From: Streptomyces sclerotialus
Lineage (GTDB): Bacteria; Actinomycetota; Actinomycetes; Streptomycetales; Streptomycetaceae
Direction of reading: 5' to 3'
Assembly: GCF_040907265.1 (NCBI RefSeq)
Contig: NZ_JBFOHP010000002.1
Location: 1 to 64,000 of the forward strand
DNA: 64,000 nt
In this document: in pieces, positions 1 to 49,400 of the stretch
Layout: the number at the start of each line of letters is the position of its first letter
Position numbering within the stretch: the first letter of the stretch is position 1
The notes under the pieces: model-generated
What the model was told of the DNA's origin: nothing
Seen by the model: the letters and a program-made list of their open reading frames with translations, nothing else
Databases searched by the model: none
Translations under genes and position numbers: made by a program

Positions 1-3
1 TGA

Positions 4-161
4 CGCTCCGTCCGCTGCGCTCCCGGAGCGGTGGGGCTACGCCCCAAAACTCCTGACTTCCGCTGCGCTCCAGTCAGGAGCCGGCGGGTCCGCTACGCTC
101 CCCGCCCCCAACGGTCCTTCCGGCTGCGCCTCCAGAACCTGAAGGCCCGTTACACGGGCCT
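4..161. repeat. Telomere-like array of hairpins
   Basis: At least four clear foldbacks are visible. Bases 4-10 pair with 24-30. Bases 32-37 pair with 41-46 around loop TAC. Bases 50-58 pair with 72-80. Bases 83-88 pair with 101-106. Bases 143-150 pair with 154-161 around loop TAC. The first and third strong hairpins share the same 13-nt loop, TCCGCTGCGCTCC (11-23 and 59-71), and the 83-106 hairpin has a near copy. A weaker foldback with a TGC loop lies at 122-130. Closely packed palindromes with 3-nt loops are characteristic of Streptomyces linear replicon ends. The canonical terminal CCCGCGG start is absent, so base 1 may be slightly internal, or this may be a non-archetypal telomere. Confidence 0.65.
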
Positions 162-271
162 GGCTGGCTACGAGGGGAGGGGGTGCTCGTTCGTGTCGAG
201 TTCCAGTGTAGCGGCTGCATCAGGCTGATGCAGCATGTAGCGTTGGCAGAAACATGGTAGAGGGTGGAGCG

Positions 272-940
272 ATGGCGATCAACAATGGTATTCCTGGAGG
301 GATCACCCGCAGAGCTAGGTACTTTATTGGCTGCCATGGCTACTGGACTGGTCGTGGTGATATAGAGCGGTACAGGAGTCGATGGATGGAGCGCGGGGTC
401 CCCGAAGCTCAGATCGATCGGGTGTCCGCCTTCGAGGCTGTCTGGGGTGGCCTGGTCCTTCCTCCTTCTCCTCACTACGACGGGGGGCCTCGGGCGTTCA
501 GCGGAGATGTACCCGAGGGACCGGACCCTGACTGGCGCTTCGGAGCCGGCGCGCAGCGTACGGCTCTTCCCTACTCCTTCATGATCGGTCCGAACGGGGA
601 GTTCGGGCTTCATGCCGGGAAGTGGGTGCCCTTGCACGCCAGCGTCGAAGGGTGGGTGGAAGCCCTCGCCCTGGCAGATCACGCCCGCAGGAGTGCGCGT
701 ACGACCACGACGTATACGGGTGCTGCTGTGGAGGACCTCGAACTGGACGGCTTCGAGGCCGTGCCAGAGATTGCCGGCCTCGCGGACACCTGGTGGCGCG
801 GCGGCGACTCGCTGATCGCCATCTATCGAGGCGAAGCCGAGGTCATGGATGCGCCACAGTGCCTGACCGCCACTGTCTACGCCGGACTCGACGAATGGGG
901 ACTTCGAGGACGTGACGACGTAGACCATCTTTCGTCATAA
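272..940 (+). CDS. Hypothetical protein next to the telomere-like end
   Basis: This 222-residue product has no family I can assign with confidence. It is rich in Trp, Gly and acidic residues, has no signal peptide or membrane segment, and looks cytosolic. The C-terminal part has alternating beta-like stretches ending in an acidic tail, loosely reminiscent of SMI1/KNR4-type immunity proteins, but I see no diagnostic motif. The ATG at 272 is preferred over the ATG at 254 because GGGTGGAG sits just ahead of it. The gene lies directly inside the hairpin array and 40 bp before the helicase gene on the same strand, so the two may be co-transcribed. Confidence 0.55.
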   Translation: MAINNGIPGGITRRARYFIGCHGYWTGRGDIERYRSRWMERGVPEAQIDRVSAFEAVWGGLVLPPSPHYDGGPRAFSGDVPEGPDPDWRFGAGAQRTALPYSFMIGPNGEFGLHAGKWVPLHASVEGWVEALALADHARRSARTTTTYTGAAVEDLELDGFEAVPEIAGLADTWWRGGDSLIAIYRGEAEVMDAPQCLTATVYAGLDEWGLRGRDDVDHLSS

Positions 941-980
941 TCTCGCCCCCTGAGAACCAGCACTGGAAAGGAAGCCGTAA

Positions 981-3626
981 ATGCAGGGAATCTCACTCAG
1001 AGAACACCAGGTCGACCAGAAGTCGGCCTTCCGTGAATGGGTCAGATTCCCTGCAAGATCTTCTGTTCCCCCGGAGGGGGCACGGGGCACGATCGTGTCC
1101 GCGACCGGGTCGGGCAAGACGATCACAGCGGCCGCGTGCGCGCTGGAGTGCTTCTCCGGCCGGCGGATCCTGGTGACGGTGCCGACCCTGGACCTGCTCG
1201 TGCAGACCGCCCAGGCCTGGCGCCTGGTGGGCCACCGGGCGCCGATGGTCGCGGTGTGCTCGCTGGAGAACGACCCGGTGCTCAACTCGCTGAGGGTGCG
1301 CACCACCACCAACCCGATCCAGCTCGCCCTGTGGGCCGCGCACGGGCCGATCGTCGTGTTCGCCACATACGCCTCCCTAGTGGACCGCGAGGACCTCGAC
1401 GCACCCGCGGGCCAGCGGAAGGTCCGCGGGCCGCTGGAGGCCGCTCTGGCGGGCGGCGAGCGGCTGTACGGGCAGCGCATGGACGGCTTCGACCTCGCGA
1501 TCGTGGACGAGGCCCACGGAACCGCCGGTGATCTTGGTCGTCCGTGGGCGGCGATCCACGACAACCAGCGGATCCCCGCCGACTTCCGGCTCTATCTCAC
1601 CGCCACCCCCCGCATCCTCGCCTCTCCCCAGCCGCGAAGGGGCGCGGACGGCCAGGAGCTGGAGCTCGCCAGCATGGCCGACGACCCGGACGGCACGTAC
1701 GGGCCGTGGCTGGCCGAGCTCGGGCTCTCAGAGGCCATCGAGCGCGGCATCCTCGCCGGATTCGAGATCGACGTCCTGGAAATCCGCGACCCCACCCCCG
1801 CCCTCGGGGAATCCGAGGAGGCGCAGCGGGGCCGGCGCCTGGCCCTGTTGCAGACGGCGCTGCTGGAGCACGCGGCGAGGTGGAACCTGCGCACTGTGAT
1901 GACGTTCCACCAGAAGGTCGAGGAGGCGGCGGCCTTTGCGGAGAAGCTGCCAGAGACAGCTGCGGAGCTGTACGCAGGCGACGCCTCCGGCGGGGCCCTG
2001 GCGGCTGCGGACCGGTTGCCGAAATCGTCGATCGACGCGGAGTTCTACGAGCTGGAGGCCGGCCGCCACGTCCCCCCGGACCGGGTGTGGTCAGCCTGGT
2101 TGTGCGGCGACCACCTCGTCTCCGAGCGGCGCGAGGTGCTGCGGCAGTTCGCCAATGGGATCAACGCGGCCGGGCGCCGGGTGCACCGGGCGTTCCTGGC
2201 GAGCGTTCGGGTGCTCGGGGAGGGCGTGGACATCACCGGCGAGCGCGGCGTGGAAGCAGTGTGCTTCGCCGACACCCGCGGCTCCCAGGTCGAGATCGTG
2301 CAGAACATCGGCCGGGCGCTCCGGCTCAACCGCGACGGCAGCACGAAGGTCGCCAGGATCATTGTGCCGGTGTTCCTGGAGCCCGGCGAGGACCCCACCG
2401 ACATGGTCGCCAGCGCCTCGTTTCGCCCCCTTGTGGCCGTTCTCCAGGGCCTGCGCTCACATTCGGAACGCCTCGTCGAACAGCTTGCCAGCCGGGCGCT
2501 GAGCAGCGGGCAGCGGCACGTGCACGTGAAGCGGGACGAGGACGGGCGGATCATCGGCACCACGGCCGGAGGCGAGGGCGGGCAGGACGAGACCGAGGGC
2601 GCGGTGGAGTCGGCGCTGCTGCACTTCTCCACCCCGCGCGACGCCGCCACCATCGCTGCGTTCCTGCGCACCCGGGTCTACCGGCCGGAATCCCTGGTGT
2701 GGCTCGAGGGCTACCAAGCCCTCCTGCGTTGGCGCCAAGAGAACGGGATTACCGGCCTGTACGCGGTGCCGTACGACACCGAGACGACGGTGGGCGTCAC
2801 CAAGGCGTTCCCTCTGGGGCGGTGGGTCCACCAGCAGCGGCGCGTGTACCGTGCGGGCGAACTCGGCGACCACCGCAAGACGCTGCTCGACGAAGCCGGA
2901 ATGGTGTGGGAGCCCGGCGACGAAGCCTGGGAGAGCAAACTCGCCGCGCTGCGCTCCTTCCACCGCGCCCACGGCCACCTCGCCCCTAGGCGGCACGCTG
3001 TATGGGGCGACGCCGACAGTGAGCTGGTCCCGGTCGGGGAGCACATGGCCAACCTCCGCCGCAAGGACGGCCTCGGCAAGAACCCACAGCGTGCGGCAGC
3101 CCGTGCCGCCCAGCTCACCCAGATCGACCCGGACTGGAACTGCCTCTGGCCGCTGGACTGGCAACGCCACTACCGCGTCCTCGCCGACCTGGTCGACGCC
3201 GACGGGGCCGGCGTCCTTGCCGAAATCCAGCGCGGAGTGCTCTTCGAGGGGGATGACCTGGGCAGGTGGCTGCAGCGGCAGAAGCAGCCGAGTACGTGGG
3301 CGCAGCTGACCACCGAGCAGCAGGAGCGGCTGACAGCGCTGGGCGTACAGCCCGATGAAGCGCCGGCTCCCGCCCCGACGGCCAAGGGTACCGGGAAGGC
3401 ATCAGCCTTCCAGCGAGGACTTGCGGCCCTCGCGCAATGGGTGGAGCGGGAGGGCGCGGACCGGCCGGTACCAAGGGGTCACGCCGAAGAAATCGCGGTC
3501 GTTGGCGAGGCCGAGCCGGTGCTTGTGAAGCTGGGCGTGTGGGTCTCGAACACGAAATCGAGGCGCGACAAGCTCACTCACGACCAGCTGAATGCACTGC
3601 GGGAGCTGGGCGTGAAGTGGGCATAG
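981..3626 (+). CDS. Terminal-type DEAH helicase with helicase-associated domain
   Basis: An 881-residue superfamily 2 helicase. Walker A is ATGSGKT at residues 41-47, DEAH at 176-179 and TAT at 207-209. The arginine-finger motif QNIGRALR begins near 441. The C-terminal 250 residues resemble helicase-associated repeats, with WESKLAALRSFHRAHGH near 650 and an IDPDWN..WPLDWQRHY block. It is expected to use ATP to translocate on DNA. This architecture matches the helicase genes found close to Streptomyces telomeres (TtrA-type), which are linked to conjugal transfer or end maintenance. The ATG at 981 has AAAGGAAG 8 bp upstream. A decayed paralogue of the C-terminal part lies at 14.1 kb. Helicase identity is secure; the telomere role is inferred from family and position. 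Confidence 0.85.
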   Translation: MQGISLREHQVDQKSAFREWVRFPARSSVPPEGARGTIVSATGSGKTITAAACALECFSGRRILVTVPTLDLLVQTAQAWRLVGHRAPMVAVCSLENDPVLNSLRVRTTTNPIQLALWAAHGPIVVFATYASLVDREDLDAPAGQRKVRGPLEAALAGGERLYGQRMDGFDLAIVDEAHGTAGDLGRPWAAIHDNQRIPADFRLYLTATPRILASPQPRRGADGQELELASMADDPDGTYGPWLAELGLSEAIERGILAGFEIDVLEIRDPTPALGESEEAQRGRRLALLQTALLEHAARWNLRTVMTFHQKVEEAAAFAEKLPETAAELYAGDASGGALAAADRLPKSSIDAEFYELEAGRHVPPDRVWSAWLCGDHLVSERREVLRQFANGINAAGRRVHRAFLASVRVLGEGVDITGERGVEAVCFADTRGSQVEIVQNIGRALRLNRDGSTKVARIIVPVFLEPGEDPTDMVASASFRPLVAVLQGLRSHSERLVEQLASRALSSGQRHVHVKRDEDGRIIGTTAGGEGGQDETEGAVESALLHFSTPRDAATIAAFLRTRVYRPESLVWLEGYQALLRWRQENGITGLYAVPYDTETTVGVTKAFPLGRWVHQQRRVYRAGELGDHRKTLLDEAGMVWEPGDEAWESKLAALRSFHRAHGHLAPRRHAVWGDADSELVPVGEHMANLRRKDGLGKNPQRAAARAAQLTQIDPDWNCLWPLDWQRHYRVLADLVDADGAGVLAEIQRGVLFEGDDLGRWLQRQKQPSTWAQLTTEQQERLTALGVQPDEAPAPAPTAKGTGKASAFQRGLAALAQWVEREGADRPVPRGHAEEIAVVGEAEPVLVKLGVWVSNTKSRRDKLTHDQLNALRELGVKWA

Positions 3627-3782
3627 CCGCCCTGTCGCCGACGCAGGGGCCCTCTAGCCGATGCCAGCTACTGCTGTTCCGGGAATGCCGCAATCGGCGG
3701 TGAGGGGCGGGGAGTGTGGGAGAACTGACGTCATGGCCGCAGGGTGCCGGCCTTATCGGCTGGCCACTTGGAGGAGGCGGGC

Positions 3783-4341
3783 GTGGGGCATATCGAGCAG
3801 GGGCTGGAGCACGCGTTACGCACCTGGCCCGTTCCCTTGAGCACCGAGGCTCGCCTGCGGTTTCTGCTGGCAACGAATCGGTATTCCACCCGGAGGGTGG
3901 CCGTCGTGCTGGGGGTGTCGCAGCGCACTGTGCAGCGGTGGGTGACGAAGAAGCCCGGAGCGCGCCGCCTGCCGGGGGGCGATGCAGGACCGGGCGATCG
4001 AGGAAGCGGTCTTGGCGCGGTGGCAGCCCCGGATACGGGCTCGTCGGCGTGCCCAGGCCGAAGCGGAGGGCTTCGTCTTCCATACCCGGGCGCGATTCGG
4101 GTTCGCCGCGCCAGCAGGGTCCTCGGACGATCCGCGGGTGCGGTGCATCACCCAGTACCTGCCGGGAGAGGTAGCCCGGGAGTTGTTCGCCGCCCGGGAC
4201 GCCGGCGCGGGCGAGCAGCAGCAGACGGTGATCCTGGCCCGCGCGCTGGGACATGCCTACTTTCGCGAATGGGGCCGCCGCGCCCACGGCTTACGCATCG
4301 CCTTCAGCGACATCGAGTTCGCCGACTTCTCGATCGGATGA
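3783..4341 (+). pseudogene. tpg: Telomere terminal protein Tpg, single frameshift
   Basis: The two reading frames together match Streptomyces Tpg, the protein that covalently caps the 5-prime ends of linear replicons and primes end patching. Frame 1 starts at GTG 3783 after a strong GGAGGAGG and gives IEQGLEHAL, then a helix-turn-helix-like stretch LGVSQRTVQRWV (residues 43-54). Frame 2 (from about 3976 to the stop at 4341) gives ARWQPRIRARRR, TRARFGFAAPAGSSDDPRVR and the acidic FSDIEFADF ending, all hallmarks of Tpg. The break lies in a run of six G at 3974-3979; removing one G joins the frames into a protein of about 185 residues, the normal Tpg length. It may be a sequencing error, a true mutation or a slippage site. 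No tap gene precedes it. Confidence 0.8.
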
Positions 4342-4364
4342 GCTTGCACCTTCGAGCGAACACG

Positions 4365-5500
4365 TCAGGTGTTCAGCGTCGCGTGGTGGGCCTGGCGCGT
4401 CTGGCCGGCATCGCTTCGTACCTCTCAGCTTCCTGCCGCTCCTGCCAGTCCCACTCGACACGGCCGGCCGGGCCTTGGCGGCGGGCCGTGGGTGGCTGGG
4501 GTGGGCGCAGCCTGGCCGTCTCGGCCAGGCGCAGCAGGTGCGCACGGTCACCTGGCGCGGCGAGCAGTTCCTGGCCCTCGCCGGGTACGAGCCGGGCGAA
4601 GCAGGCCGCGGCCCGCAGGAAGATGCCCGCCCAGGGCGGTACGGGGTGGGTGGCGCAGCCGTCGGTGTAGCGGGCGCGGTCGTGCAGGGCGAGTGTGGCC
4701 GCAGCGTCGTCGTAGTCGCGGGGGCGGGCGGTGGCGAGTTGCTGGAGGGAGGCGCCGGTGAACAGCGCGGCGGCGACGGCCGCGGCCAGGCGAGGATGTG
4801 CGGTTGCTGTGCGAAGCCGGTGGGTGACTCGCTGGGCGGTGTGCGGGGTGAGTGGAGCGGGCGGTGGGCGGTGCCGGAAGACGATCGGGGGGCGGCGTGC
4901 ACGGGGCAGTGCAGGGGCGGGGCTGTCGTAGGAGATGAGGCGGTCCAGTGCGGGCAGGGTGAGCCACCGGCTGGCCGGCCAGGCGGGCTCGTCTGCCGGC
5001 GGGGGTTCGGCGATAGGCGTGCCGTAGTAGTGGCGGCGGGGCGGCTTCGAAGTCGGCGGTGACGGAGTAGTCGGCCGTGCGCAGGGCCTGGTGCAGAGCG
5101 GCGGGAAGGTGAGAGCGGTGGCAGATCGGGGTCAGGTGGATATCGGTGAGGGCTTGTAGCTGCAGGGGGCGCATCGTGCGGCGGGCGGGGGGGTGAGGCG
5201 GTGGGCGCGCAGGACGGTCAGCCGGGTCACGGGCAGGGCGGCCATCCAGGCAGTGGCTGCCTGCCGGGCTGGCTGACGGCCGCCGGGAAAGCGGCCCGGG
5301 AGTAGGGGCGGTTTGCCTAGGGCGGCGAGAAGGTCGTGGGCGAGGCCGGTCTCGCTGGTGGTGCCCGGGCCGGGGTGCAGGGTGATCCGGCCGGACGGCG
5401 GATGGTGGGCGGCCAGGGCGGTGTGCGTGTAGATCACATCGTTGCCCGGGTCGATGACCACAGTGACGGGCGGCGGCGCGGCGAGGTGCGTGGCGGTGTG
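4365..5500 (-). pseudogene. Broken conserved hypothetical next to TniB-like relic
   Basis: Three consecutive minus-strand frames read as one former protein of about 370 residues. The first segment begins near 5461 (VIDPGNDVIYTHTAL) and includes LPVTRLTVLRAHRL. The second contains LTDIHLTPICHRSHLPAALH. The third runs to the stop at 4365 and contains WPASRWLTLPALDRLIS and HPVPPWAGIFLRAAACF. The first shift falls in a C7 run near 5190 and the second near a C4 run around 5045, so either decay or homopolymer miscalls could explain them. I do not recognise the family; the last segment has a faint tyrosine-recombinase feel that I cannot support. It lies directly downstream of the TniB-like fragment and probably belonged to the same operon. 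Confidence 0.5.
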
Positions 5501-5504
5501 GTGT

Positions 5505-5936
5505 TCAGGCGAGGCGACTGAAGGCCCAGCGCAGCAGCTCCTGGTTCACGCGGGCGCGGCCGGTGCGGGTCAGGGCGGTGCGGGTGTGGGCGGTCAGTTG
5601 GGCCCAGGCGCGGAAGTTGCCGTGCGCGGCGTGGCTGTCAGCGAAGGTGATGTCCTCGGGATCGGCATCGGCCCGGATCGGGTGGAACAGGGGGATGACG
5701 TCGAGGACCTCGTTGGGGGTGAGGCGGGTGAAGTGCTGCCGGATGAAGATGCGGGAGGAGAGCATCGGTTCGCGGCGCAGCACGGTGTGGCAGCCTTCGC
5801 CGCCGACGAAGATGATCGCGAGCTGGGTGGCTGGTTCGTCCCATAGGTAGCGGAAGTATTCGAAGGCCTCGCCGCCCGCCCAGCCATCAGATCCTCTCAG
5901 GTTGCGATTCATGATCAGTTCACCATCCGCTGTCAA
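5505..5936 (-). pseudogene. C-terminal part of a TniB/TnsC-type AAA ATPase
   Basis: The 143-residue frame carries the second half of a transposition-type AAA ATPase: FRYLWDEPATQLAIIFVGG, then VLRREPMLSSRI, LTPNEVLDVIPLFHPI and AHGNFRAWAQLTAHT. In TniB/TnsC proteins these correspond to the Walker B/sensor 1 strand, the sensor region and the lid. The Walker A half is absent, because the sequence upstream of 5936 has no matching frame, so the gene is 5-prime truncated and presumably inactive. No TniA-type transposase lies beside it. Confidence 0.65.
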
Positions 5937-6044
5937 GCCTCTTAGGTGGCAGCCTGTTGTCTCCAGCTGCCCCCGATGCTGAGCGGCTTCGACCGCCTCA
6001 CCGACGCCTGACTCGCCATCGTCGGTGGGGCCGACGCATCGTGG

Positions 6045-6339
6045 TCAGGGCGTGTCGCCGGAGTAGTAGAAGCGGCAGCTCACTCCAGGGCCCGGTGTGC
6101 GCGGCTCGCCGGGGCGCGGGTCGTACAGGGCGCGGCCGCCGGGCCACCGCGACAGCTCGGTGGACAGGGCCGCGCCGTCCTCGGCTTCCCCCGGCCGCCA
6201 GCCGGTGATGCCCAGCAGGAACCCGTCCAGCGGCCCGCCGACAGCACCGCGTACGTCCGGTGCGGCAGCGGGCCGGGGCCGGGGTGTCGTGGTCGTGGCC
6301 GTAGCCCCGGCCGCGCAGCAGCTGCTCATCGCCGTTCAT
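6045..6339 (-). pseudogene. Conserved Streptomyces hypothetical, frame-disrupted
   Basis: An ATG at 6339 starts MNGDEQLLRGRGYG. The conserved remainder is in another frame: GGPLDGFLLGITGW, AALSTELSRWPGGRALYDPR and FYYSGDTP just before the stop at 6045. Small proteins with a GGPLDG..GW and a GGRALY.PRPG block are common in Streptomyces accessory regions, and their function is unknown. A second, further decayed copy lies at 40500-40712 with about 120 bp missing internally. Two relics of one family 34 kb apart suggest duplication or repeated import. Confidence 0.45.
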
Positions 6340-6504
6340 CCCCAGCCTTGCAGCCACCACCGGCAACGCGGCCGGACGGCAGAGGCCCGGCACCTGGATG
6401 GAGGCCGGGCCCGCTGCCGTGCTCAGCGCGGCGTCGGCAGCGCGGCCAGGTTCCGGCGGTCCTCGCCGTGGCCGACGCCCCGCCACACCGGACGGTCGGG
6501 CCTC

Positions 6505-7414
6505 TACCGGGTCAGCAGGGCCGGGTCGTGGTCGCCACCATAATCCGGTAGTTCACACTCACCACGCGGCGAGCGCGGTCGCAGAACGCGGCCTCCCTCG
6601 TTGCCGGGGCGGCGCGCCGCCGGGCCGGGGCGAAGACGAACAGCACCGGCGGGAAGGGGCGGTGCAGGGTCGGTCCGGCGTAGGTCTCCTGCCAGTGGCT
6701 GCGCGGGACACGGGCGGCGTTGCCTCATCCGCTCGCCGGCGCGCCGCGGTAGGCGTCGTAGCGCTCCAGCTTGGCGAGCAGGCGAGCGTAGGACATCGTG
6801 CGGTCGATCTCCACGAACGCGTGGGAGCCATCGCTCAGGAGCACCGCGCCGTCGGGTATCAGGGGGCCGGCCGGCGTGGGATGGGCGACTTCTACCTGCC
6901 AGTCGGCAGGTCGGCCGTCTGCGCCTGGTGGAAGCAATGCCGGTGCCGACCAGGGCGAGGGCGTGCTCACGCAAGCCGGTCCGCGCGGCTGTGGCCACCC
7001 GCCGCCGCCAGCCGCGCGCATCCCGGGTGGCCCAGCCGGCCCTCGGCGGCAGCTCGCCGGAGGCGGCAGCTTCGGCCAGGCCCGCCGGGACGCAGTACCA
7101 GAAGCTGTGCTGGGCGCGGTGGACCCGAGCAACCAGGGCGTCCGCGCGGAGGTTGCGCAGCGCGCGGCGGAGATAGTCCGTTGCCTGGTGGTCGGCAGCA
7201 GCAACATCTTGAGCTGGCGGGGCATGGCCAGGCGCAGCCGGGCCATGATGCTGTACGCCTGATCGGCGTCGAGCGGAGTGATGGCGGCGCAGGAGCCGAC
7301 GGCTACAGTCAGGCCGCCTGACTGCCCCGCCGCACGACTCGGACACCTCACCGCCACGTCATCCGGCGGAACCGCTGACAACCCGGGCCTACGGGCCGTG
7401 GCCACCGAAGACAT
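6505..7414 (-). pseudogene. Replication-relaxation-type plasmid protein, multiply frameshifted
   Basis: Minus-strand segments in different frames rebuild a plasmid protein of the replication-relaxation type. The N-terminal winged-helix part gives RLRLAMPRQLKMLLLPTTRQ, then YLRRALRNLRADALVARVHR and FWYCVPAGLAEAA. The C-terminal nuclease-like part gives WQVEVAHPTPAGPLIPDGAV and SHAFVEIDRTMSYARLLAKL. Such genes occur on integrative and linear plasmids of Streptomyces. At least three frame changes separate the blocks, so it is a relic. It supports a plasmid-derived origin for this end of the window. Confidence 0.6.
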
Positions 7415-7430
7415 ACTGCCTGATGCGGCG

Positions 7431-8207
7431 CTAGACCGCGGTGAAGCCGCCGTCAGCGGCGACCACGGCTCCTGTGATGAAGCTGGAGCGCGGGGACGCC
7501 AGGAAGCACAGCACCTCGGCGATCTCTTCGGGCTGCGCAACTCGTCCCAGGGGCTGCGCCTCAGCGAAGGACGCCAGGTATGAGCGGCTGTCGGGGCGGA
7601 TCGTGTCGAGGAAATCGGTCTCGATGACGCCTGCGGCAACGAGATTAGCGCGGATGCCCAGTGGCCCGCCCTCGACGGCGAGCACCTTGGTCAGTTGAGC
7701 CAGAGCGCCCTTCGACGCGCTGTAGGCGACGCCTTCGGGCAGGGCGACGGCGCCGGCGTAGGACCCGGTACTGACGATGGCACCGCCGCCGCGGTTCTTC
7801 ATGACCCGAAATGCTTCACGGGCGCAGAAGAACGAGCCGCGGGCGTTGACCGCCATCACAGCGTCCCAGTCCTCGGCGGTGGTTTCGGTGATGGGCTTGT
7901 TCACAGTGCGTCCGGCGTTGTTCACCAGGATGTCCAGCCCTCCGAAGGTGTCCAGGGCCGATTGCACCGCGCGGGCGGCGGTCTCTTCCCGCGTGATGTC
8001 GCCGCGCATCGCGAATACGCCGGGAAACTCGTCCGGCAGCCTCATGATGTCGGGGCGTAGGTCCACGGCTACGACGCGGGCGCCGCGGACGTGGAGAAGC
8101 GCCACGGTCTCCTTGCCCACGCCGCGCGCGGCCCCGGTGACGAGAGCGGTCATCCCAGCGAACTCGGCGGATTCGGATGCTTCGGCGGACGCAGTTGCAG
8201 GTGTCAT
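7431..8207 (-). CDS. SDR family NAD(P)-dependent oxidoreductase
   Basis: A 258-residue classical short-chain dehydrogenase. The cofactor-binding motif is TGAARGVG near residues 25-32, the structural motif NNAG lies mid-protein, and the catalytic pair is YSASK. It is expected to interconvert alcohol and carbonyl groups on a soluble small substrate; specificity cannot be read from sequence. The ATG at 8207 fits the usual family N-terminus and has AGGGA upstream; the open frame extends further but enters a repetitive intergenic stretch. Another SDR (8418-9176) lies upstream on the same strand, suggesting a shared catabolic unit under the regulator at 9723. Confidence 0.85.
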   Translation of the reverse strand: MTPATASAEASESAEFAGMTALVTGAARGVGKETVALLHVRGARVVAVDLRPDIMRLPDEFPGVFAMRGDITREETAARAVQSALDTFGGLDILVNNAGRTVNKPITETTAEDWDAVMAVNARGSFFCAREAFRVMKNRGGGAIVSTGSYAGAVALPEGVAYSASKGALAQLTKVLAVEGGPLGIRANLVAAGVIETDFLDTIRPDSRSYLASFAEAQPLGRVAQPEEIAEVLCFLASPRSSFITGAVVAADGGFTAV

Positions 8208-8288
8208 GGTGCGGTCCCTGGAGAAGGTGAGGTGAGTGCAGGCGCCGGTGCGGGCGGACCTGAGGTGCTGTGCAGTGGCGCGGTGAGC

Positions 8289-8402
8289 GGGCCAGGTAGG
8301 CCAGGCGGGCCAGGTAGGCCAGGTAGGCCAGGACGTTGACGCGGTCACGGGGTGCGGCGTTCACGGCAGGCCGTCGTGGCCGTCGTGGCCGTCGTGGCCG
8401 TC
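8289..8402. repeat. Two 9-bp tandem arrays between SDR genes
   Basis: Bases 8289-8332 hold about five copies of GGCCAGGTA/GGCCAGGCG. Bases 8370-8402 hold nearly four copies of GCCGTCGTG. Both lie between the two SDR genes and outside any supported coding frame. Similar 9-bp arrays recur at 44379 and 57958. Confidence 0.8.
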
Positions 8403-8417
8403 CTACGGCCGGGCTGT

Positions 8418-9176
8418 TCAGTGCGCGGTGAGGCCGCCGTCGACCACCAGCTCCGAGCCGGTGACGAACGAGGAGTCGTCGCAGGCCAGGAAGAGGATCG
8501 CGGAGGCAACCTCGTCGGCGCGGCCGGCTCGGCGCATGGGGGTGCGCCGGATGTCCGGCTGCCGGTCGCCCTGGTCGTCCAGGAGGTCCTGGATCATCGG
8601 CGTGGCGATCACCCCGGGATGCACCGAGTTGACCCGTACTCCCTGCCGGGCGTACTCGACCGCGGCGGTCTTGCTCAGCAGGCGCACGGCCCCCTTGGAC
8701 GCCTGGTAGGCCGCAGCCGCGCCGCTTCCCACCAGGCCGAGTACGGACGAGGTATTGATCACCGAGGCGTTGCCGCTCGCACGCAGGAGCGGCATCGCCG
8801 CCTTCATGCCGAGCCAGGTGCCCTTCTGGTTCACGTCGATGACGCGGTCCCACGCCTCTTCCCGCGTGTCCTCGACACCTGGCCAGTCCAGGATGCCGGC
8901 GAGATTCACGAGCACGTCCAGCGTTCCGAACCGGTCGCGTACGACGGTGATCACTTCGTCCCACTCCCGCGCGGAGGAGACATCGAGGCGGGCAGCGACG
9001 ACCTCTGCGCCGCGTGCCCCGATCCGCTGGGACAGGTCCCGCAGGGGGCCTTCGGCGACATCGGTGACCACCAGCCGGGCGCCTTCGCGGGCGAAGAGTT
9101 CGGCGGTCGCTGTGCCGAGGCCGCCGGTCGCGCCCGTGATCAGCGCGACCTTGCCGTCAAGTCGTTGTCCTGTCAT
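8418..9176 (-). CDS. SDR family oxidoreductase
   Basis: A 252-residue classical SDR starting MTGQRLDGKVALITG. It has TGATGGLG at the nucleotide fold, an N-L-A-G structural motif in place of NNAG, the catalytic Ser in INTSSVLGL, YQASK, and the PG motif VHPGVIATPM. The GSELVVDGGLT ending is typical of the 3-ketoacyl-ACP reductase-like and glucose dehydrogenase-like group. It is a soluble enzyme of unknown substrate. It is upstream of the SDR at 7431-8207 and, with the 94-residue gene at 9299-9583, forms a likely leftward transcription unit divergent from the regulator at 9723. Confidence 0.85.
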   Translation of the reverse strand: MTGQRLDGKVALITGATGGLGTATAELFAREGARLVVTDVAEGPLRDLSQRIGARGAEVVAARLDVSSAREWDEVITVVRDRFGTLDVLVNLAGILDWPGVEDTREEAWDRVIDVNQKGTWLGMKAAMPLLRASGNASVINTSSVLGLVGSGAAAAYQASKGAVRLLSKTAAVEYARQGVRVNSVHPGVIATPMIQDLLDDQGDRQPDIRRTPMRRAGRADEVASAILFLACDDSSFVTGSELVVDGGLTAH

Positions 9177-9203
9177 GGATGTGATCCTTGGTTCTCATTG
9201 ATG

Positions 9204-9226
9204 CTGACTGGCTGACTGGCTGACTG
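9204..9226. repeat. 8-bp tandem repeat before the SDR gene
   Basis: Three copies of CTGACTGG lie directly upstream of the SDR start at 9176, between it and the 9299-9583 gene. Copies of this size may affect translation initiation spacing, but nothing more can be said. Confidence 0.7.
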
Positions 9227-9298
9227 CTGTGCCGGGCTTCTTGGTCCGCCGACGGCGGCTTCGCCCCGGTGACCAGGGCGGCCGCGGCCCGGCCTCCT

Positions 9299-9583
9299 CT
9301 ACGACGACTTCTGCTCCCGGTAGAGCACGAGGTGCTCGTGATAAAGCACTCCGTCCCGGATGTCGTCGGTGGCGGTGAACCCGGTGTCGTCGACGTAGTC
9401 CAGGTGGCTGCCGGTCACCGTGTACCGGCCGGTGTACGCGCTGCGCCGCTCGCCGCGGGCCTCTTCGTAGCGGCCGTCCCGCAGTAGCTCCTGACGGATG
9501 TGCCCGTCCGCGGTCACCCACGTTCCGACCACGCCGACCGTTCCGACCACGTCGACGTGGTCGCTCTCCACGGTCCCGGCCAC
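9299..9583 (-). CDS. Atu4866-family small protein
   Basis: A 94-residue protein with the beta-rich pattern of the Atu4866 domain: GTWVTADGHIRQELL, YTGRYTVTGSHLDYVDDTGF and DGVLYHEHLVLYRE. The family resembles a small lipocalin-like barrel of unknown biochemical role and is often encoded beside SDR oxidoreductases and XRE/MmyB regulators, exactly as here. Translation starts at the first ATG after the divergent promoter region. A palindrome with 16-bp arms (9664-9696) lies about 80 bp upstream and probably controls it. Confidence 0.75.
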   Translation of the reverse strand: MAGTVESDHVDVVGTVGVVGTWVTADGHIRQELLRDGRYEEARGERRSAYTGRYTVTGSHLDYVDDTGFTATDDIRDGVLYHEHLVLYREQKSS

Positions 9584-9663
9584 GGCAAACTCCTCTCCTC
9601 GAACGGTGCGGTCCCTCCCGCTCCACCGAGTCTGGGCAGGTCAGCGGCCACCGACCAGGGCGC

Positions 9664-9696
9664 GTGCTGCCTGGGTGTGCCACACCCAGGCAGCAC
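9664..9696. promoter_or_regulatory. Perfect 33-bp operator-like palindrome
   Basis: Two perfect 16-bp arms (9664-9679 and 9681-9696) flank a single central C. The left arm reads GTGCTGCCTGGGTGTG. It sits between the regulator gene (start 9723) and the leftward gene starting at 9583. This is the normal position for an autoregulatory operator serving both promoters. Arm length and symmetry are well above what is usual for an XRE-family site. Confidence 0.7.
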
Positions 9697-9722
9697 ACCG
9701 GGCCGCCGCCTAGCCTGACCAC

Positions 9723-10604
9723 ATGGACGACAACCACCTGGGAGACTTCCTGCGCGCACGCCGCGCCGGCCTGCAGCCGCAGGACGTCGGCATGACCAGC
9801 TACGGAGCCCGCCGAGTCGCCGGCCTGCGCCGCGAGGAGGTCGCCGTCCTGGCCGGCGTGAACGCCGACTACTACACCCGCCTCGAACAAGGCCGCGAAC
9901 GCAACCCCTCACCCCAGGTGGTCGACGCGCTCAGCCGCGCGCTGCGCCTCGACGCGGACGCCCGCGCGCACCTGTACCGGCTGGCCGGGGCCACGCCAGG
10001 CGAACGGCCCTCCGTCCACGCCGCCGAGCGGGTCAGCCCGGCACTGCGACAGCTGATGGACGGCTACCCGAACACTCCAGCGTTCGTCATGAGCCGGACC
10101 CTGGACCTCCTCGCCGTCAACGCCTTGGCCGATGCCCTCTACGCCCCGTTCGAGCCGGCGGACAACTTGGCCCGCATGACCTTCCTCGACCCCGCGGGCC
10201 GCACCTTCTACACGGACTGGGACCGGGCAGCACAGGCCACCGTCGCCAACCTTCGCGAGGCAACCGGATTCGACCCGGACAATCCACGGCTGCGCGAACT
10301 CGTCCGCACCCTCATCGAGCACAGCGCGGACTTCACCCGCCTCTGGCAGTCCCACACCGTGCGAGGCAAGACCCAGGACGCCAAACACTTCCTCCACCCA
10401 GAGGTCGGCCCGCTCACCCTCACCTACCAAGCATTCGACGTACGCGAGACGCCCGGCCAGCAGCTCGTCATCTACCACGCCGAACCAGGCAGCCCCAGCG
10501 CCCAGTCCCTCAATCTGCTCGGTTCCCTCCACGCCACCCGGCGCCGGCCCGACTCCGGCCCCATCGCTGACCAGCCGACGGAACGTGGAGACCAACGGCG
10601 ATAG
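9723..10604 (+). CDS. XRE-family regulator with MmyB-like ligand domain
   Basis: A 293-residue regulator. The N-terminal helix-turn-helix covers about residues 8-80 (LRARRAGL, RRVAGLRREEVAVLAGV, YYTRLEQGRERNPSPQVVDA). The C-terminal domain from about 100 has the MmyB-like pattern, with PAFVMSRTLDLLAVNALADA and NLARMTFLDP. Such proteins bind small or fatty-acid-like ligands in the C-terminal domain and repress adjacent oxidoreductase genes. It is divergent from the Atu4866 and SDR genes, with the palindrome at 9664-9696 between them. The last dozen residues are probably unstructured. Confidence 0.85.
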   Translation: MDDNHLGDFLRARRAGLQPQDVGMTSYGARRVAGLRREEVAVLAGVNADYYTRLEQGRERNPSPQVVDALSRALRLDADARAHLYRLAGATPGERPSVHAAERVSPALRQLMDGYPNTPAFVMSRTLDLLAVNALADALYAPFEPADNLARMTFLDPAGRTFYTDWDRAAQATVANLREATGFDPDNPRLRELVRTLIEHSADFTRLWQSHTVRGKTQDAKHFLHPEVGPLTLTYQAFDVRETPGQQLVIYHAEPGSPSAQSLNLLGSLHATRRRPDSGPIADQPTERGDQRR

Positions 10605-10610
10605 ATCGGC

Positions 10611-10905
10611 TTCGCCGCCGCCTGTTTCCCAGGTGCCGACGCCGACAGCCGCCCGGAGCTGGAGGCCGCTGCGAAGCTCGCCGGGAGATCCGCTCCTGCG
10701 GCGTCGCCGTGACCCTCGCCGTCCACGAGCACAAGCGACCCGGCTGCGGGATCGAACTCGCCATGCTCGCCCTGCTCGCCCAGGAGCTGACGGCGAGTGA
10801 TGTCGGGCTGGACTTCCTCGCCGAGGAGCTGAAGGGTCCGCACCACCCGTCCGGCATCGTGCTCACCGCGCTCGCCGCCATGTCCGGCCCCGTCACCCAT
10901 CACCC
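10611..10905 (+). pseudogene. Serine recombinase fragment
   Basis: Two adjacent plus frames give RPELEAAAKLAG, then IRSCGVAVTLAVHEHKR and ASDVGLDFLAEELKG..PSGIVLTALAAMSG. This is the mid-section of a resolvase/invertase catalytic domain, including the long helix before the DNA-binding arm. The catalytic Ser region and the DNA-binding domain are missing, and there is a frame change near 10684. It is a relic of a mobile element next to the MmyB regulator. Confidence 0.6.
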
Positions 10906-10923
10906 GTCACCCGTCACCCGTCA
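10890..10923. repeat. 7-bp tandem repeat
   Basis: About four to five copies of CACCCGT (first one CACCCAT) directly follow the recombinase fragment. The remaining 235 bp up to 11158 contain no gene I can support. Confidence 0.75.
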
Positions 10924-11158
10924 TGCGGACGCTCCCCGAACACCACGAGCAGACCGCCACCAAGGCGAGCCCGCCCCCCACTACCCTGCGGCTGGTGTCA
11001 GAGCTGGGACTTCAGAGCCTACTGGCGCAGGGTGTCCCGTTCGGTGCGGTCGGCGGTCAGCTCCCAGCGCAGCTTGGTGCCACCCAGTCGGCTACCTGGC
11101 GGACTCTACGTCGCAGGCGTCTTCCTCTGGTCCGCACGCTGATCCAACATGAAACCGC

Positions 11159-11908
11159 CTAGTACGCGAGCTGCCCGATGCCCCCGTCAACGCGCAGCAC
11201 GGTCCCTGCGGTGTAGGCGGATTCGTCCGAGGCGAGATAGACCGCTGCCTTCGCCAGTTCGGTGGCGGTTCCCAGGCGATGGAGAGGCACGGTCCGCCGG
11301 AGTTCCTCGTAGAGGGCGGCCTGGCGCTCGGGGCCGAGGGGCGCGAACGCGTTGGTGATCGTCGGGCCCGGGCTCAGTCCGTTGACGCGGATCCCTCGGT
11401 CCTTCAGTTCATGGGTCAGCCCGCGCGTGTAGGAGAGCAGGCCCGCCTTGGCCGCGCCGTAGACCGTCGCGTTCTCGTGTCCGATGTACGCGGAGACCGA
11501 GCCGACGAGGATGACCGAGGACTGCTGGGAGAAAAGCGGTAACAGGTCCCTGATCAGGAAGAACGGCGACTTAAGATTGGTCGCGAGGAGCCTGTCGAAC
11601 GCCTCCTCGGTCCATGCCTCGATCGGGAGGTGGGTGACGTCGGCGGCGTTGCTCATCAGGATGTCGAGCTTCGGCCATTCCTCCTGGAGCCGCGCCGCGA
11701 GCGCCGCCTGGCCGGGTACGTCGCCGGCGTCACTGGCGATGGTCAGCAGCGGGCCGTCCAATTGCCGGGCCGCCTCGTCCAGCTTTTCCTGAGAGCGGCC
11801 GGTGATGGCGACAGTCGCTCCCTCGGCGAGGAACTCGCGGGCCGTTTCGAGGCCGATGCCGCTCGTCCCCCCTGTGATCAGCGCGTGCTTTCCCGTAAGA
11901 CGATCCAT
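11159..11908 (-). CDS. SDR family oxidoreductase
   Basis: A 249-residue SDR starting MDRLTGKHALITGG, with TGGTSGIG, the SNAAD equivalent of NNAG, the catalytic Ser in VGSVSAYIG, YGAAK, and a GTVLRVDGGIG ending. The ATG at 11908 has GAGGAGGGA upstream. The preceding SDR relic runs into it in frame without a stop, so a fused product could form if the upstream relic were translated. The strong internal ribosome site makes independent translation more likely. The substrate is unknown. Confidence 0.82.
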   Translation of the reverse strand: MDRLTGKHALITGGTSGIGLETAREFLAEGATVAITGRSQEKLDEAARQLDGPLLTIASDAGDVPGQAALAARLQEEWPKLDILMSNAADVTHLPIEAWTEEAFDRLLATNLKSPFFLIRDLLPLFSQQSSVILVGSVSAYIGHENATVYGAAKAGLLSYTRGLTHELKDRGIRVNGLSPGPTITNAFAPLGPERQAALYEELRRTVPLHRLGTATELAKAAVYLASDESAYTAGTVLRVDGGIGQLAY

Positions 11909-12620
11909 GGTTCTGTCCCTCCTCGGATCTCCTCGGATTGCGGTGCGGCCACCGTCAGCGGCCACGATCGCCCCTGTCATGCAACTGGCCCGGCCACTGA
12001 CGACAAACGCGATCACGTGCGGCACCTCGGCCGGGTCGGAGATGCGCTCGAGTGCGGCGGCCAGGCTCATACCACCGATGTCCGGTCCCACCGCCGCGAC
12101 CACCTTCGAGGTGCGCATCGGGCCCGGAGCGACGGCGCTGACCCGCACGTTCGACTCGGCGAATTCCGCCGCCCAGGTGCGGGTCAGCGATTCGAGCACC
12201 GCCTTGGTCGCGCCGTAGACGGTCATGCCCGGCATGCCGAGACCGGCCGCGGTGGATTGGACGTTGACGATGCTGCCACCGCCCGCGGCCATCTTCTCCG
12301 CGAGCAGAGCGGTGAGCAGGACGGGGCACGCACATTGACCGCGAAGGTGGCGTCGTAACTCGCGAAATCCTGCCCGGTGGCCGGGGAGAACGTCATGACG
12401 CTCGCGTTGTTGAGCAAGATGTCGACGGCTTCGGCAGCCGCGGCCAGCTGTCGCACGCCCGCCGAATCGGACACATCGGCAGCGACGAAACGCACCGTCC
12501 CGGCGGACTCGCCACCGACTGCGCGGAAGCCTTTTACGACCTGGGCACCGCGCTTCGGACCGGTGCCGGTCAGGGCCAGGTCGGCGCCGCCCGCGGCCAG
12601 CACCTTGGCCGTCGCGGGCG
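11909..12620 (-). pseudogene. Truncated, frameshifted SDR relic fused in frame to the next SDR
   Basis: Upstream frame: AKVLAAGGADLALTGTG, VDILLNNAS and TFAVNVRAP. A one-base loss in a C-rich stretch near 12325 moves the rest to another frame, with GGGSIVNVQSTAAGLGMPG, YGATKAVLESLTRTW and TGAIVAADGGRTA. The glycine-rich nucleotide-binding motif at the very N-terminus is missing, because the sequence starts abruptly just after the toxin stop at 12621. No stop codon separates the C-terminus from the SDR at 11908. Loss of the cofactor motif makes activity very unlikely. Confidence 0.75.
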
Positions 12621-49234: not shown

Positions 49235-49400
49235 CGCACGGGGGACGGTCAGCCGCCGGAACCGGCCGTCGTCGGTCGTGCCGAGGGAGCGGTGTTGCCG
49301 AAGCGGGCGCGCGTTTCGATGGTGATGATGCCGACGGTGGTGGCGGCCTGTTCGCGGTGGCGCTGCCGAACCCGCTTCTGCGCGAGCTGCACGGCTGCCG
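49235..49400 (-). pseudogene. Relic of a second tpg (terminal protein) gene
   Basis: One minus frame reads QLAQKRVRQRHREQAATTVG and IITIETRARFGNTAP, the central Tpg signature of a basic helix followed by the T/I-x-TRARFG strand. After a one-base shift the next frame continues LGTTDDGRFRRLTV, again as in Tpg. The N-terminal helix-turn-helix and the acidic C-terminus are missing. It differs from the copy at 3783, so it is an independent remnant of a linear-replicon end gene. Confidence 0.6.

Follow-up and report, generated by a model that had tools for sequence, protein, structure and literature searches.

Hairpins at the left end of a Streptomyces sclerotialus contig as the probable inner part of an archetypal telomere

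Hairpins and genes at the left contig end

The window, that is the whole stretch of 64,000 nucleotides analysed, comprises bases 1-64000 of contig C2 (8,261,949 bp). It opens with a cluster of hairpins, followed by a conserved block, an orphan gene, a helicase gene and a remnant of tpg, all lying within a terminal inverted repeat (TIR). The features are listed under the names they carry in the reading favoured here, in which V-VII follow the palindrome order along the sequence and VIII-XI are our own numbering for the inner hairpins.

1-12616: left TIR copy of the linear chromosome; right copy inverted at G000:C2:8249264-8261878 (blastn)
4-30: archetypal-telomere palindrome VII; 7-bp stem (4-10/24-30), 13-nt loop TCCGCTGCGCTCC at 11-23 (census)
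32-46: inner telomere hairpin VIII; 6 bp, loop TAC, GTA on the opposite strand (census)
50-80: inner telomere hairpin IX; 9 bp, same 13-nt loop as 4-30 (census)
83-106: inner telomere hairpin X; 6 bp, 12-nt loop TCCGCTACGCTC (census)
143-161: innermost telomere hairpin XI; 8 bp, loop TAC (census)
178-262, plus strand: conserved subtelomeric block, whose core GATGCANCATGTANNNTTGGC (227-247) overlaps a dyad (214-234)
272-940, plus strand: first gene from the end, 222-aa protein of a widespread orphan family
981-3626, plus strand, inward: ttrA-type terminal helicase; ResIII/DEAD, Helicase_C and HA repeats (Pfam)
3807-4332, plus strand: relic of a broken tpg, matching Tpg profile positions 7-58 in one frame and 66-182 in another

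The census (perfect stems of at least 6 bp, loops of 3-14 nt) finds five hairpins in 1-161 and bears out the preliminary description, which had noted five strong hairpins, two with identical 13-nt loops and two with TAC loops. The identical 13-mer occupies positions 11-23 and 59-71; on the 3′-ended strand the loop of hairpin 4-30 reads GGAGCGCAGCGGA, and the loop centres of the window hairpins on that strand are GCA in two cases and GTA in three. By the same census the density over the whole 64 kb is 0.73 hairpins per 161 nt, none of 3182 other stretches (sampled every 20 nt past base 200) contains five or more, the maximum being three, and 500 dinucleotide shuffles of 1-161 give a mean of 0.62 and likewise a maximum of three. 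Folding as DNA, suggested earlier as a check, shows 1-161 to be more stable than its shuffled versions, with z −3.72 on one strand and −2.98 on the other (0 of 200 as stable in each case). Of 796 other stretches in this GC-rich window, however, 136 reach an equal or better folding energy; folding energy was therefore dropped as weak evidence, and it is the density of regular hairpins that is unusual.

The block at 178-262 is matched by 71 plasmid records. Its core occurs at 32 places in 25 of 199 genomes, with no occurrence of the reversed-pattern control, and its plus-strand places number 16, of which 15 are no more than 1.1 kb from a contig start and one (G314) is 10.9 kb in. The motif is oriented, is also found beside ends with diverged outer palindromes (L042, L046, L048), and is perhaps a candidate control site of the ttrA unit.

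The product of 272-940, which is 184 aa long in a database entry, has no Pfam, NCBIfam, PHROG or PADLOC match. It has 295 relatives at E≤0.001, those named among the 120 listed being actinobacterial; one source labels a relative as SMI1/KNR4. The predicted model is confident (pLDDT 90) and finds no PDB fold match at E≤0.001. A telomere role was considered for this protein and rejected: since it has neither domain nor fold match, and since 7 of 16 loci encoding relatives are not situated at an inward-reading contig end, it is treated as a bystander.

Of the two genes that the preliminary description had placed behind the hairpins, the terminal-type helicase is present at 981-3626. It is matched by 711 plasmid records, 484 of them covering at least 80%, and the best 20 relatives of these 711 are 81-83% identical and lie, without exception, within 2 kb of the record end and read inward. 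A terminal, inward placement is also described for ttrA (PMC8743542). The second gene, tpg, stood only in part: the Tpg profile does match 3807-4332, but in two different frames (3807-3953 with 37.5 bits, under the cut-off, and 3982-4332 with 131.7 bits), so that this copy is a broken relic, the intact tpg lying outside the window. An identical relic is located in the right TIR copy (C2 8257546-8258071). With an intact tap-tpg pair elsewhere in the genome, the relic in both copies may be left over from an earlier telomere or plasmid-arm exchange. A further weak Tpg-profile fragment is seen outside the TIR at 49282-49389 on the minus strand (29.2 bits, under the cut-off).

The intact genes adjoin each other on one strand and lie outside the TIR, at 27 kb from the right end, with Tap at C2:8232067-8234280 (1114.6 bits, cut-off 600) and Tpg at C2:8234333-8234878 (301.4 bits, cut-off 90). 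Of 14 control genomes none is matched by the Tpg model and four are matched by the Tap model, all below its cut-off.

Both contig ends and their missing outer parts

The TIR copies agree in 12613 of 12618 blastn columns (99.96%), with no substitution and five gap bases at four G/C runs. Identity ends at 12616 and the arms differ immediately from 12617, as after arm replacement. The window lies at a real end of a linear chromosome, ordinary in kind, and the replicon terminus proposed earlier is supported by the 12.6-kb TIR, by similar sequence at other Streptomyces replicon ends, by the inward ttrA-type helicase and by tap-tpg. As the right copy reaches 71 bases farther out than base 1 of the window, base 1 is not the physical end. 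Continuation of base 1 into ordinary chromosomal sequence for many kilobases had been named as a possible refutation; the sequence does continue outward for these 71 nt, but into telomere palindromes and not into ordinary chromosome. The additional bases hold three more palindromes (IV-VI), whose 3-nt loops on the 3′ strand are GCA in V and VI and TCC in IV.

The 14.2-kb contig C1 was considered as a telomere piece or a second linear replicon and rejected, as it has no exact end overlap and no TIR. Its matches to the window are two short weak ones of 25 and 34 nt, and of its 187 inverted pairs the 25 longest are just 70-84% complementary.

A query of 322 nt, made up of the right contig end and the window, matches 159 plasmid records, 158 from Streptomyces and one named [Kitasatospora] papulosa, which its own taxonomy also assigns to Streptomyces. 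In 39 of the 40 records listed of these 159 the match lies no more than 175 nt from the record end. The exception, NZ_CP101398.1, has the telomere sequence in mid-record (about 97597 of 194662), which suggests that a linear plasmid was joined head to head in the assembly. Within the family, 59 of 249 genomes, a sample including the genome studied here, match at E≤0.001; the 41 measured of 45 places at E≤1.1e-10 are all located within 365 nt of a contig end, and some weaker matches fall inside contigs. The 190 genomes without a match, in a first look that scored only two candidates per genome, may be drafts lacking ends or carry other classes.

The alignment with 13 plasmid ends, 12 of them longer than the right contig end and one cut likewise, follows palindromes IV, V, VI and VII as well as the inner hairpins. 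In genome G237 the 9,025,608-bp contig carries palindrome I at both ends, and the right contig end begins at its nt 68; the alignments to the two G237 ends score 175 and 214, against shuffled maxima of 56 and 52. Bases 1-29 of the window recur as 29 unchanged bases at the left end of this large contig. The two G237 contigs (9,025,608 and 94,287 bp) fit by length the S. avermitilis chromosome and its plasmid SAP1, and the 94,287-bp contig has the same match positions as SAP1 (NC_004719.1). The chromosome telomeres of S. coelicolor and S. avermitilis are described as archetypal in PMC7205883.

Several marks of the archetypal class are found here: a position at a linear replicon's end that carries terminal inverted repeats (12,616 nt, at both contig ends), a tight row of further palindromes whose order and spacing are conserved (seen against the 13 plasmid ends and both G237 ends), stable 3-nt loops, which in this class are mainly GCA on the 3′ strand, and a tap-tpg operon encoded in the genome. 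With a probability of about 95%, the window hairpins represent the inner stretch of an archetypal Streptomyces telomere that is missing its outermost bases in this assembly. Because palindromes I-III occur at neither assembly end, the assignment to the class relies on IV-VII, on the inner hairpins and on the proteins. Palindrome I together with Tap/Tpg would not by themselves prove the class, as non-archetypal telomeres, too, may possess palindrome I and be accompanied by Tap/Tpg homologues (PMC7205883).

The preliminary description was correct in that the canonical Streptomyces end sequence is absent: palindrome I (CCCGCGGAGCGGG, 13 nt) has no copy in the window, in the right-hand 40 kb or in C1, and palindromes II and III, the Tap sites, would lie beyond the assembled sequence at both ends. 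Palindrome I stands at or near the outer edge in 16 rows of the comparison (one plasmid end appearing twice, as L042 and L080). Nine of these place the start of the right contig end at telomere nt 68 and one places it at nt 69; in the other six the match is shifted by insertions or divergence. Since the complete ends place the right end at nt 68, it is short by 67 nt and the window by 138 nt, and it is this truncation that explains the missing canonical sequence. The window thereby lacks palindromes I-VI save the last two bases of VI, and judged from the alignment 4-161 would correspond roughly to nt 142-299 of the archetypal telomere. The palindrome I sequence given in PMC7205883 and the nucleotide order given in PMC4513846 agree with the complete ends seen here.

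The class suggested earlier, a non-archetypal telomere, did not hold, since the sequence aligns with archetypal ends whose outer 138 or 67 nt are cut off here; on these alignments it is not a new telomere class. A non-archetypal or new class would account for the absence of the canonical outermost sequence from the window and both contig ends and might find support in the inverted loop of palindrome IV at the right end. It is nevertheless highly improbable in view of the alignment, through IV-VII and the inner hairpins, to ends opening with palindrome I, including both G237 ends, and of the encoded Tap and Tpg above curated cut-offs. The non-matching left end of pSHJG1, which we take to be the plasmid's non-archetypal end, scores 43, not above 100 shuffles with a mean of 37.7 and a maximum of 60, its right end scoring 350. 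A search with the pSHJG1 left end returns six plasmid records, none of a named telomere class. PMC8743542 names the right-hand end of pSHJG1 as Sg2247, and in CP003276.1 the right end begins with palindrome I; the two orientations appear to differ.

About equally improbable is a chromosome that became circular or arm-fused after telomere erosion and was cut open as a contig in assembly, a history with which the lack of palindromes I-III at both ends and the unequal lengths missing would agree. Joining two 12.6-kb inverted copies would, however, create a giant palindrome, which is expected from general knowledge to be unstable. Moreover, other deposited ends are cut likewise or farther in (L013, L047, L067, NZ_CP065256.1), and polishing may truncate extreme ends (PMC11260486). 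Least probable of all is that the hairpins, although they lie upstream of the 272-940/ttrA unit, are only terminators, REP-like repeats or regulatory structures of the adjoining gene, as no terminator-like site is found in 1-1000 (0.3 expected) and the hairpins of relatives stand at replicon ends ahead of differing annotated genes.

The archetypal reading carries a caution beyond this locus, namely that a telomere of non-archetypal appearance in a stretch of genome may belong to the archetypal class, its outermost palindromes having been lost in assembly, and that a comparison of the two contig ends settles the matter.

Stem covariation and the inverted loop of palindrome IV

The alignments also yield a small quantitative picture of covariation in the inner hairpin stems. 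In 28 of 52 loci examined, picked by score, the five stems (36 pairs, 938 cells) are paired in 86.1% of cells, and 22 of the 36 pairs show changes on both sides. Double changes occupy 95 of the 938 cells, compared with 31.6 ± 3.9 after shuffling (0 of 500 reach this value), a count that is not a probability because the sequences are related, and with at most 24 when the partner is slid, a comparison in which slide 0 is favoured because the structure came from the own sequence.

Hairpins 4-30 and 32-46 are paired in 92.9% and 95.2% of cells, with changes on both sides in five of seven and four of six pairs, respectively. For hairpin 50-80 the values are 86.8% and eight of nine pairs, several of which are gap-rich, and for hairpin 143-161 they are 89.7% and three of eight. 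Hairpin 83-106 is paired in only 63.7% of cells because it is one C shorter than most aligned relatives, which brings its 3′ arm out of register. Hairpin 4-30 has the exact 13-mer loop in 19 of the 28 sequences and hairpin 83-106 in 25, the rest differing at no more than two positions; the loop of hairpin 50-80 is more variable and exact in just three of 28. The stems vary yet stay paired, the pattern to be expected of a structure under selection.

At the right contig end the outermost 21 nt (G000:C2:8261929-8261949; L033/L004) contain palindrome IV with an inverted loop, the 5′ strand reading GGA and not TCC. Among 34 readable fetched ends, a set biased in that the pattern search itself brought in L082 and L083, the loop is normal in 30 and inverted in four, namely the right contig end, both ends of S. 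glaucescens pSglau1 (L053, L081) and genome G534 (L083). Across 392 genomes of the genus, exact copies of the normal pattern stand at 39 places, spread over 32 genomes, and the inverted one is seen in two genomes. One of these two, G264, has a normal palindrome read from the opposite strand and was not counted. The chromosome end in the genome of the pSglau1 strain has the normal loop. Inversion is not confined to palindrome IV, as the loop of palindrome III is inverted in L055 (GCGCGCAGCGCG instead of the usual GCGCTGCGC).

Palindrome I is described as complementary to part of palindrome IV (PMC4513846). Compared with the complement of palindrome I, inverted IV has mismatches at 5 of 13 positions and normal IV at 0-2; in all four ends with inverted IV, palindrome I is incomplete. 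At the right end the inverted palindrome may be a fold-back artefact, because it occupies the extreme edge of the contig. An archetypal telomere with a naturally inverted palindrome IV loop is put forward tentatively, as a reading with somewhat less than an even chance. The same inversion in the pSglau1 ends and in G534 suggests that pairing between I and IV may be dispensable, or that palindrome I may flip along with IV. If genuine, such rare natural inversions bear on the fold-back model of end patching and would let its I:IV pairing be tested.

End patching and known telomere systems

According to published work, bidirectional replication leaves about 300 nt of the 3′-ended strand single-stranded, which folds into a row of hairpins, and sheared G:A pairs close the telomere hairpins. 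Palindromes II and III are bound by Tap, which together with Tpg carries out Tpg-primed synthesis of 13 nt in vitro, followed by fill-in (PMC4513846). Class membership and the intact tap-tpg pair suggest the same scheme here. By analogy, Tap on II and III together with Tpg would use protein priming to copy the initial 13 nt on palindrome I, and a polymerase would then fill the remaining gap. The window hairpins would form the inner half of the overhang and would pack and protect this inner part.

Among known systems, the SCP1 type likewise has a protein-capped linear replicon end. It is set apart by its description, a start with a G run and the use of Tac/Tpc (PMC4513846). The Sg2247 type of S. 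rimosus and S. albidoflavus resembles the present end in its rows of hairpins with GGA, GAA and GTA loops at replicon ends (PMC8743542). In the genomes with Sg2247-type chromosomes that paper reports no Tap, Tpg, Tac or Tpc, an observation that is not a strict rule, strains with hybrid plasmids carrying tap and tpg according to the same source; here, both Tap and Tpg are present. From the non-archetypal telomeres as described in PMC7205883 the present end differs by its alignment to archetypal ends and by its GCA and GTA loops. From the archetypal telomere with Tap/Tpg it differs in that I-III are not assembled, the right-end IV loop is inverted and a second, broken tpg lies in the TIR. With that telomere, as described in PMC7205883, PMC4513846 and PMC8743542, it shares the order and spacing of IV-VII, the inner hairpins and the GCA/GTA loops, together with the TIR, an inward ttrA and adjacent tap and tpg.
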